Origin: Streptomyces asiaticus
GTDB lineage: Bacteria > Actinomycetota > Actinomycetes > Streptomycetales > Streptomycetaceae
Reading direction: 5' to 3'
Length of the DNA stretch: 64,000 bases
Assembly: GCF_018138715.1 (NCBI RefSeq)
Contig: NZ_JAGSHX010000006.1
Coordinates: 6,262,001 to 6,326,000 of the forward strand
The stretch's first letter is position 1. Every line of letters starts with the position of its first letter. The position numbers were made by a program, and so were the translations under genes. Of this stretch, positions 56,467-58,524 are shown in pieces. The notes under the pieces are model-generated. The model had not been told where the DNA came from and ran no database searches. It worked only from the letters and a program-made list of their open reading frames with translations.

Positions 56467-57591
56467 CTACTGCCAGGTGAGACGCTGTCCGTCGGATTCC
56501 ACGTGCAGCATCAGCCGCTCGGCGGGTGGCCTGTCGGCCTGGTGCCACTGCCTGATCTGGTCGCTGATGGAGTCCCACAGGCGGGCTGGGCCGCCCTGGC
56601 GGACCATCCATCGCCCGTCGTCCTCGAACGCGGCTGCCCACGCCCCGGCCTCCACGTCGATGATGACGTGTTCGTCTCGGCCGTTGCGGGACAGTGCGAA
56701 GCGCTGGGCCCGTGGTGCCGCGAACTGCGCGACGAACCGCGCCGTCCAATCGTCCAGCACATCACCGCCGATGTCCGTTGGCATGGCTTCCCCCGAATTG
56801 AGATCCGGCAGAGTTCCCAGAGCCGGAGGAGTGTGGGACCGCGCGAGCATGAACGAGACTCTTCCGCCAAGGACAGGGCCGCTTGCTGTTCCGTCTTCGG
56901 CCACGGTCAGACGGACAAGCTCAGACGCGTTCATCCACCCGCAGACGGCCACGAGAATCTCACCCCCTACACGGGTCTGAGCGATCCACTCCGAGGGAAC
57001 CGAATGCACTCCACATGTCGCGATCAAGCGGTCGTAGGGGCCGCTCTCCTCATGACCGGCCAATCCGTTACCGACAATCAACTCAGGCCAGTAACCGAGC
57101 CTGCCCAGGGCCGTACCCGCGCGAGCGGAGATATTCGAGTCCACCTCAACTGATGTCACGTTGTCCTCACCGGCCACCTGCGAGAGAAGTGCCGTTGAGT
57201 AACCCGTTCCAGTGCCGATCTCGAGCACCCGGGTGCCCTCATCTACGTGAAGCTCTTCGAGCATACGGACCACGAGACTCGGGAGGGTGGAAGATGAAGA
57301 GGGGCGGTGCGAGATACGTCCCTCGATTTGGCTTGGAGTGACGGAATCCGCAACCTGGGTGGTCAGCGTGTCGTCCTCGTACACGCGGCGGAGCCGTTCG
57401 GGGTGGTCCGCGAGGAACACGGGGCGGTACCAGCCCTCGTCTTCGTATTCGAACCAGCCATCGGATAGAAATGCTTCGCGGGGAACGGCCAGAATGGCGG
57501 CTTCCCATTCTGGACTTCGCAATGCTCCGGATTCGGTAAGTTGCCGCGCGAGAGCCGCCCGCAGCCCCTCAGAGGAAAAGTCGTCGGTCAT
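56467..57591 (-). CDS. Protein-isoaspartate-methyltransferase-like enzyme of an ATP-grasp RiPP system
   Basis: A 374-residue SAM-dependent methyltransferase. The PIMT-like core includes AVPREAFLSDGWF, SSSSTLPSLVVRMLEEL and motif I LEIGTGTGYSTALLSQV (about residues 120-140); a C-terminal extension of ~150 residues follows. This matches the methyltransferases paired with ATP-grasp peptide maturases. In the known case of fuscimiditide, such an enzyme methylates a core Asp and so drives aspartimide formation. It overlaps the ATP-grasp remnant by 4 bases (ATGA). Its frame is fully open, with mixed codon use and lower G+C than the surroundings. Confidence 0.87.
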   Translation of the reverse strand: MTDDFSSEGLRAALARQLTESGALRSPEWEAAILAVPREAFLSDGWFEYEDEGWYRPVFLADHPERLRRVYEDDTLTTQVADSVTPSQIEGRISHRPSSSSTLPSLVVRMLEELHVDEGTRVLEIGTGTGYSTALLSQVAGEDNVTSVEVDSNISARAGTALGRLGYWPELIVGNGLAGHEESGPYDRLIATCGVHSVPSEWIAQTRVGGEILVAVCGWMNASELVRLTVAEDGTASGPVLGGRVSFMLARSHTPPALGTLPDLNSGEAMPTDIGGDVLDDWTARFVAQFAAPRAQRFALSRNGRDEHVIIDVEAGAWAAAFEDDGRWMVRQGGPARLWDSISDQIRQWHQADRPPAERLMLHVESDGQRLTWQ

Positions 57592-58269
57592 GCGTTATTC
57601 TCTCCGTTCTCCAACAGGTCCACGATAGCTGTCGTGATGGGAAGTCCCGCCGCATCTTCGAGCCACGCCCATTGTCCATTCGCGTTGCATTCGAGGAACC
57701 ACCATCTTTCGTCTGTGGTTACCGCGAAATCGAATGCCCCGAAGTTGAGCCCGAAATGAGCGAGGAACCGAACCAGTGTGCGCCGCATGTCGTCCGGGCA
57801 CTGGATCGGTTCGTACGTCAGGTTCCGGTACTCGGTGCGCCAGTCGATCACACCAGGTGGGGAAGTAATCCGTGCGCAGAAAATCCGTTCACCAACAACA
57901 ACCGCTCGTACATCGAAAACCTTGGGAACCTGAGCCTGGAACAGATGCGCGCAATGACGTACCGCGTCGTCCACCTTGCCGGGATCAACGGAGGATGCCC
58001 AAATCCCGGCAGGCTCCCTATCGATGTCATAGGCGCCCGCATGCATCGAGCGAGCGGATGCTTCCCAGGTCTGCCGTTCGCTCGCCTACGTGGAGCTGCC
58101 CACCCCAACCGTCCGGACTCAACCGGGCTGTAAGAACACAGGAGTCAGGAAAATCGCCACCGGGATCGAATCGTAGAACGGGCACCCGGCGTCGGTTTAA
58201 CTCCGTGATGACCAAATCTGCGGTGGGGTCCTCGTATTCGGTGGCGACCAGCACCGGGTACCCGTTCAT
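57588..58269 (-). pseudogene. ATP-grasp peptide maturase, internally deleted and frameshifted
   Basis: Two pieces of one gene in different frames. The N-terminal piece (58269 to 58027, 80 residues: MNGYPVLVATEYEDPTADLV .. ERTADLGSIRS) matches the pre-ATP-grasp domain of SAV_5884-type maturases. The C-terminal piece (ending at 57588) has VPKVFDVRAVVVGERIFC, NFGAFDFAVTTDERWWFLEC and NANGQWAWLE, the end of the ATP-grasp fold. About 100 residues between them, including the ATP-binding lysines, are missing, and a stop (TGA at 58027-58029) ends the first piece. Intact family members are about 310-330 residues. It cannot make a working ligase as sequenced, unless the assembly is wrong here. Confidence 0.82.
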
Positions 58270-58272
58270 CTC

Positions 58273-58524
58273 TTACGACTGCCCTTCGTCCTGCTCGGCG
58301 TCGTGGCCGGCGTCAGAGTCCATCTTGCCGTCTTTGGACACCTGTGTGGGCGGGTAGGTGTTGACGGATGTCCCGTGTTTGCCGAGTTCCACAGGGGTCG
58401 GCGCGCCGTCACTGCCCACCCAACGGCCCGTCTGTGTTTGCGGGTCAATTCCCGCGTACCGCCATGGGGAAGGCTCCCCATTCCGCAGCGGTGCCATGCG
58501 GCTCATGCCCCACGGAATCGGCAC
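58273..58524 (-). CDS. Graspetide-type RiPP precursor peptide
   Basis: An 83-residue precursor of the ATP-grasp-modified RiPP family. The leader has the conserved PWGMSRMAP recognition motif (residues 4-12) and IDPQTQTGRWVGSDG; the C-terminal core begins at GKHGTSVNTYPPTQVSKDGK and ends with an acidic tail (DSDAGHDAEQDE). Thr/Ser residues (52, 53, 56, 60, 63) come before Asp/Glu residues (65-80), as needed for omega-ester rings, and Asp65-Gly66 is a likely aspartimide site. The GTG at 58524 with GGAG 6 bases upstream is preferred; a TTG at 58557 is an alternative. It ends 3 bases before the maturase remnant. Confidence 0.82.
   Translation of the reverse strand: MPIPWGMSRMAPLRNGEPSPWRYAGIDPQTQTGRWVGSDGAPTPVELGKHGTSVNTYPPTQVSKDGKMDSDAGHDAEQDEGQS

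Follow-up and report, generated by a model that had tools for sequence, protein, structure and literature searches.

In the pathways of fuscimiditide and related peptides, an ATP-grasp enzyme forms nested Thr-Asp esters in the precursor and a methyltransferase then forms an aspartimide in the loop, according to the available portions of PMC13001092 and PMC12291112. The accessible text of PMC13001092 further reports that graspimiditide methyltransferases are inactive on the linear precursor, describes a WXXXGXP motif in their C-terminal domain, and presents two-gene systems consisting of a precursor and a PIMT-like enzyme as a class. PMC12291112 states that ThfB of the fuscimiditide pathway accepts very different cores, PMC10787088 describes imiditide precursors as short (~45 aa) and rich in Gly, Pro, and Asp, and PMC8939145 describes truncated, presumably inactive ATP-grasp proteins as occurring regularly in another branch of the graspetides. 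The locus described here has the same precursor and methyltransferase families and the same gene order as those of fuscimiditide, amycolimiditide, albusimiditide, and SsfA, which belong to group 13 of the graspetides. Like these, it encodes a Thr/Asp-rich core with Asp-Gly in a putative loop, but its maturase gene is broken. With the imiditides and type I pamtides it shares a precursor gene beside a PIMT-like methyltransferase gene without a working primary maturase; it differs from them in its long-leader, graspetide-type precursor and in the maturase remnants between the two genes. Very probably, the locus is a canonical operon of the group 13 graspetides (graspimiditides), inactivated recently by a deletion within its ATP-grasp gene.

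Within the window, i.e., the entire stretch of 64,000 nucleotides of Streptomyces asiaticus that was analyzed, the locus occupies the minus strand and runs from the precursor gene through the ATP-grasp maturase gene to the PIMT-like methyltransferase gene (Table 1). A preliminary description had placed a precursor-maturase-methyltransferase trio in a low-GC pocket, and its coordinates, strand, gene order, 3-base spacing, and ATGA overlap were all recovered from the sequence. Specifically, 3 bases separate the precursor stop codon (58275-58273) from the next ATG (58269-58267), and the C-terminal maturase piece overlaps the methyltransferase gene in an ATGA at 57591-57588. A GGAGAG, read by eye, is located near the end of the C-terminal maturase remnant just 5′ of the methyltransferase start. 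The low-GC pocket was likewise confirmed, with a GC content of 0.625 for the trio versus 0.712 for the whole window. Values were 0.58-0.67 across 56500-59249, 0.65-0.68 in the ~1.5 kb further right, and 0.69-0.80 left of the pocket and beyond these 1.5 kb on the right. At eight other loci the trio reached 0.646 (L029, Streptomyces sp. MnatMP-M17), 0.635 (L030, S. radicis), and 0.675-0.717 (the remaining six).

Table 1. Features of the graspetide locus and its neighborhood (window positions)
Feature	Position	Strand	Remarks
Precursor ORF	58273..58605	-	110 aa from GTG; TIGR04186 (E 4.7e-16, over cut-off), PF14408
N-terminal ATP-grasp maturase remnant	58027..58269	-	80 aa; TIGR04187 positions 1-69
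Internal deletion junction	58048..58049	-	DNA alignment versus L029
C-terminal ATP-grasp maturase remnant	57588..58046	-	152 aa, other frame, ATG at 58046; TIGR04187 positions 163/170-312
PIMT-like O-methyltransferase, intact, 374 aa	56467..57591	-	TIGR04188; PF01135
Small ORF upstream, at most 100 aa, no family	58736..59038	-	
Divergent NsdA-family TPR/HTH regulator, neighbor	59702..60955	+	NF053720, 155.7 bits (over cut-off 75)

The precursor ORF, previously recognized by its PWGMSRMAP motif, matches both TIGR04186 (58.7 bits; cut-off, 25) and PF14408 (45.1; cut-off, 25). Its leader (PWGMSRMAPLRN...DPQTQTGRWVGSDG) is followed by the core KHGTSVNTYPPTQVSKDGKMDSDAGHDAEQD, and the database protein P0125 (94 aa) has the same sequence with a start 16 residues later. 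For 10 chosen precursors, the subfamily core consensus reads AELGKHGTSVNTYPPTQVGKDGKxDxDSGHDAxQD, and 39 of 87 columns across leader and core are invariant. A Thr/Asp stem core with a loop Asp followed by Gly is present, K-D-G being invariant among these 10, which describes a feature of the sequence only. With 94 to 110 aa and membership in a graspetide family, the precursor is not of the short, Gly/Pro/Asp-rich imiditide type. These comparisons place the core in a conserved subfamily of the group 13 graspetides (graspimiditides). Among 392 genomes of the genus, 17 contained the precursor of this subfamily, one of them with a partial copy (G248). The proposal that the core defines a separate variant was rejected, as the subfamily shows hardly any variation in the core. 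A full-text literature search by core sequence words returned no characterized product of the subfamily; sequences printed in figures only would escape it.

The methyltransferase matches TIGR04188 with 407.5 bits (cut-off, 380) as well as PF01135 and contains the SAM motif EIGTGTGY, so its description as PIMT-like holds. At the place of the WXXXGXP motif it reads WHQADRP, with Asp instead of Gly. The S. niphimycinicus protein reads WHHADRP and P0005, from a strain whose maturase is apparently full-length, WHQADSP; P0006 has Ala at the Gly site. As a text pattern, W-x3-G-x-P was present in five of seven checked subfamily members (L046, L047, L052, L058, and L066) and in three of the four other methyltransferases of the genome. 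Since it is absent in some members, even beside intact maturases, the motif is not universal.

In the family searches, the precursor and the methyltransferase thus passed, but the maturase did not: its two pieces scored 72.8 bits (N-terminal) and 180.5 bits (C-terminal) against TIGR04187, far below the curated cut-off of 350, and the full-length TIGR04187 maturase of a graspimiditide locus is missing. No minus-strand frame is open through 57588-58269. The N-terminal remnant comprises ~74 family residues, followed by a short out-of-family tail and a stop codon, and profile positions 70 to ~162 have no counterpart in either piece. In the DNA alignment, a 275-bp block of L029 is absent at the junction given in Table 1, with 77-79% identity to L029 on either side; as 275 is not divisible by three, the reading frame of the maturase is shifted. 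At the protein level, 92 residues (70-161 of P0212, a full-length maturase) have no counterpart in the window. The lost segment, across which solved ATP-grasp ligases (e.g., AMdnB, 9bou, and 7m4s) align, includes the AEYKPAQL and IYKP stretches of the full-length relatives and with them both conserved YKP lysines, which we take to be ATP-binding. Because these stretches are lost, a working two-piece maturase was rejected. A NANG change in the C-terminal piece was discarded as proof of decay, as full-length P0212 has NANG too. Judged from its sequence in this one assembly, the maturase gene is a pseudogene, contrary to the working ATP-grasp gene described before. By analogy with the branch in which truncated proteins are regular, a shortened ATP-grasp protein need not be accidental, but the present gene has lost its reading frame, too.

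The full-length maturase P0212 comes from Streptomyces sp. DSM 41524. Its identity is 98% to the C-terminal piece (152 aa) and 96% to the N-terminal piece (69 aa), and the existence of so similar a homologue indicates that the maturase was lost recently. In this strain the maturase alone was seen, without its surroundings. The neighborhood comparison with relatives, as suggested earlier, yielded complete trios. L029 has a full-length maturase and a complete precursor with a core nearly identical to that of the window, and L030 has a full-length maturase and a precursor that is in frame for the core and for part of the leader. In Streptomyces sp. NPDC056669, P0216, which belongs to this maturase subfamily and is full-length, and P0005, a methyltransferase 90% identical to that of the window, are found on contigs of 448201 bp, which were taken as the same; P0006 and P0210 are likewise on contigs of 251031 bp, also taken as one. 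S. niphimycinicus (L028), in which the neighboring genes are the same, shows a larger deletion at this site, either a separate or a further one, that removed the precursor together with most of the maturase (positions 1-231 of a model constructed for the maturase in this analysis). Full-length maturases occur in close relatives (~90% methyltransferase identity) of the window locus, L052, and L058, seen in context for L049, the relative of L058, and otherwise by presumed location on the same contig, with L064 outside this comparison. For L096 and L067, the nearest relatives seen were more distant (85% and 74%, respectively).

By analogy with characterized members, the ATP-grasp enzyme of the intact relatives would esterify core Thr residues to Asp side chains, giving a stem-loop in which the Asp of the KDGK loop would next be turned into an aspartimide by the methyltransferase. 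With an ATP-grasp protein that lacks ~92 residues, including both YKP lysines, and changes frame, the precursor encoded here would stay linear and unmodified. Since such methyltransferases are reported to be inactive on the linear precursor, the locus is not expected to yield a cross-linked and aspartimidylated peptide in cis. The locus therefore probably no longer makes a cyclic peptide by itself, although we infer this loss of product. The earlier reading as a fuscimiditide-type trio is accordingly kept for the precursor and methyltransferase families, but not for a working maturase. Low dN/dS values of the precursor (0.095) and the methyltransferase (0.123) versus L029 are unlike those of a long-dead locus; they fit a recent break and would also be compatible with continued use.

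The genome contains six such precursor loci, i.e., four with a maturase above the cut-off, one at 2.986 Mb with a frame-changed maturase, and the window locus. At the 2.986-Mb locus (G000:C6:2985979-2986898, L043), the maturase is split into two frames near profile position 80, either by a real frameshift or by a base-calling error, and the adjoining precursor and methyltransferase pass their cut-offs. At another locus (G000:C6:9416626-9417744, L042), a precursor and a full-length maturase have no TIGR04188 match alongside. It is conceivable, though unlikely, that one of the other maturases cross-links the window precursor in trans and that the local methyltransferase then aspartimidylates it, so that the product is still made. 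Such a split pathway would find four maturases above the cut-off, one of them only ~32 kb away, some shared leader motifs (PWG in three of the five other precursors, DPETQTGRWVGSDG in the one at 2.547 Mb), open frames for both precursor and methyltransferase, and, in ThfB, a precedent for tolerance of very different cores (available portions of PMC12291112). However, the identity of the four maturases to P0212 amounts to only 33-45%, all four have a precursor of their own alongside, and the ThfB results, as far as that text goes, concern changes in the core. It is very unlikely that the break exists only in the assembly and that the strain itself carries an intact maturase: the break was seen in one assembly and a close relative has a full-length homologue, but a clean absence of 275 bp between flanks 77-79% identical to L029 is not a typical base-calling error, and most of the maturase gene is likewise missing from the separate genome of a near relative.

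Losses of this kind were found repeatedly in the genus. Among the matches listed, a full-length methyltransferase of at least 60% identity was present in at least 24 of 392 genomes, and a maturase of at least 65% identity was found in 19, two of them truncated (G084 and G355). No genome with the precursor (0/17) or the maturase (0/19) was found to lack the methyltransferase. Again among the matches listed, the precursor or the maturase was damaged or missing at 9 of 24 loci (G000, the genome of the window, as well as G173, G118, G088, G326, G084, G355, G382, and G248), and the methyltransferase frame was full-length at all 24. G229, with one flagged stop, was counted as intact, its maturase being in a single open frame. 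In a 25th genome, G105, the locus on a 4-kb contig comprises a decayed methyltransferase and a 20-residue maturase stub and lacks a precursor. A plain sign test gave p = 0.004 for 9 versus 0 and p = 0.02 for 9 versus 1, for loci that are related and in many cases come from draft assemblies. Outside the 24-locus sample, the precursor is frame-shifted beside a full-length maturase in L033/L091, the maturase is split by a stop in L098 (G464) and spread over several frames in L036, and the middle of the unit is lost in L096 (G704). The sample likewise did not include the possible counter-case of Streptacidiphilus sp. 4-A2 (L034), in which the precursor and maturase are open and the methyltransferase is in three frames, perhaps owing to an assembly error, or L101 (G478, completeness 76%), which yields the same matches as L034. 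By eye, HATPase-type ATP-binding (anti-sigma-like) ORFs were noted upstream of maturase-less methyltransferases in L104, L106, and L108, and in L149 (G355), where the precursor and the maturase N terminus are gone, a phosphomannomutase-like frame directly precedes the maturase remnant. We regard it as doubtful that graspimiditide loci decay in a fixed order, with precursor or maturase lost first and the PIMT-like methyltransferase last, be it owing to another substrate of the methyltransferase or to harm done to the producer by a cross-linked but unmethylated peptide. A literature search returned no title on decaying graspetide loci among the matches listed.

Selection pressure on the methyltransferase was compared in several ways. 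Between the window strain and S. niphimycinicus its dN/dS is 0.171, and in the other five pairs of the four species 0.100-0.135; three neighboring genes gave 0.152, 0.186, and 0.233. The ratio of changes at codon positions 1+2 to those at position 3, pooled over terminal branches, was 0.199 for seven damaged loci and 0.192 for loci labeled intact (Mann-Whitney p 0.22), so that damaged loci gave no clear sign of relaxation by this measure. This comparison involved 41 sequences, with L034 and L101 removed before tree construction, a usable ratio in 29 of 30 intact-labeled loci, and L055, L060, L091, and L098 in neither group. Its labels are imperfect: L060 (G355) was marked as a contig end and has a truncated maturase, and the intact group held L066, with a damaged precursor, and L030, with its leader only partly in frame. 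With two agreeing outgroups, the window branch had 16 synonymous and 12 nonsynonymous methyltransferase changes and that of S. niphimycinicus 9 and 11; polarized with L029 alone, the counts were 28:18 and 24:16, respectively. The maturase stub common to both strains has a dN/dS of 0.385 on 20 changes, while the maturase gave 0.11-0.15 with or between relatives (stub, C-terminal piece, or whole gene) and its N-terminal piece 0.174. The strictly polarized counts and the shared stub hint at some relaxation, on few changes, and the indication of selection retaining the methyltransferase after maturase loss is weak. As the datable losses are recent, dN/dS values and branch ratios give no proof of continued methyltransferase function. 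That the methyltransferase has been reused in an imiditide-like manner, modifying the linear precursor or another peptide as part of a precursor-plus-PIMT pair, is very unlikely: both genes are still open, the methyltransferase has outlasted its partners in the sample of 24 loci listed, and such a two-gene class exists according to the available text of PMC13001092, but the characterized graspimiditide methyltransferases are described there as inactive on linear substrate, the precursor is of the graspetide rather than the short Gly/Pro-rich type, the checked losses (window, L052, and L058, with relatives that have a full-length maturase) look recent, the methyltransferase itself has decayed in G105, where the precursor and almost the whole maturase are gone, and constraint is alike at damaged and intact loci, which recency explains as well.

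The small genes upstream, which had been thought to help define a variant, are outside the conserved unit and were rejected as members of it, as they were found at E <= 1e-3 in only 1 of 21 related loci, that of S. niphimycinicus. The small upstream ORF in Table 1 had no NCBIfam or Pfam match at E <= 1. The NsdA-family regulator, too, accompanies the locus in 1 of the 21, again S. niphimycinicus (L110).

Overall, the window locus is a recently disabled member of a known peptide class; the family assignment stands, and the claims of a working trio and of a variant fall. With the annotation corrected, the window strain is a poor choice as a producer, and relatives with a full-length maturase (DSM 41524 and NPDC056669) are better candidates. 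A natural maturase-minus locus in a genome with four other maturases offers a way to test directly whether graspetide pathways cross-talk. If decay did follow a fixed order, some PIMT homologues without a known partner could be survivors of decayed graspimiditide loci, and the repeated loss of precursor or maturase next to an open methyltransferase suggests a possible origin for some of the 3653 PIMT homologues for which, in the available portions of PMC10787088, there is no clue.
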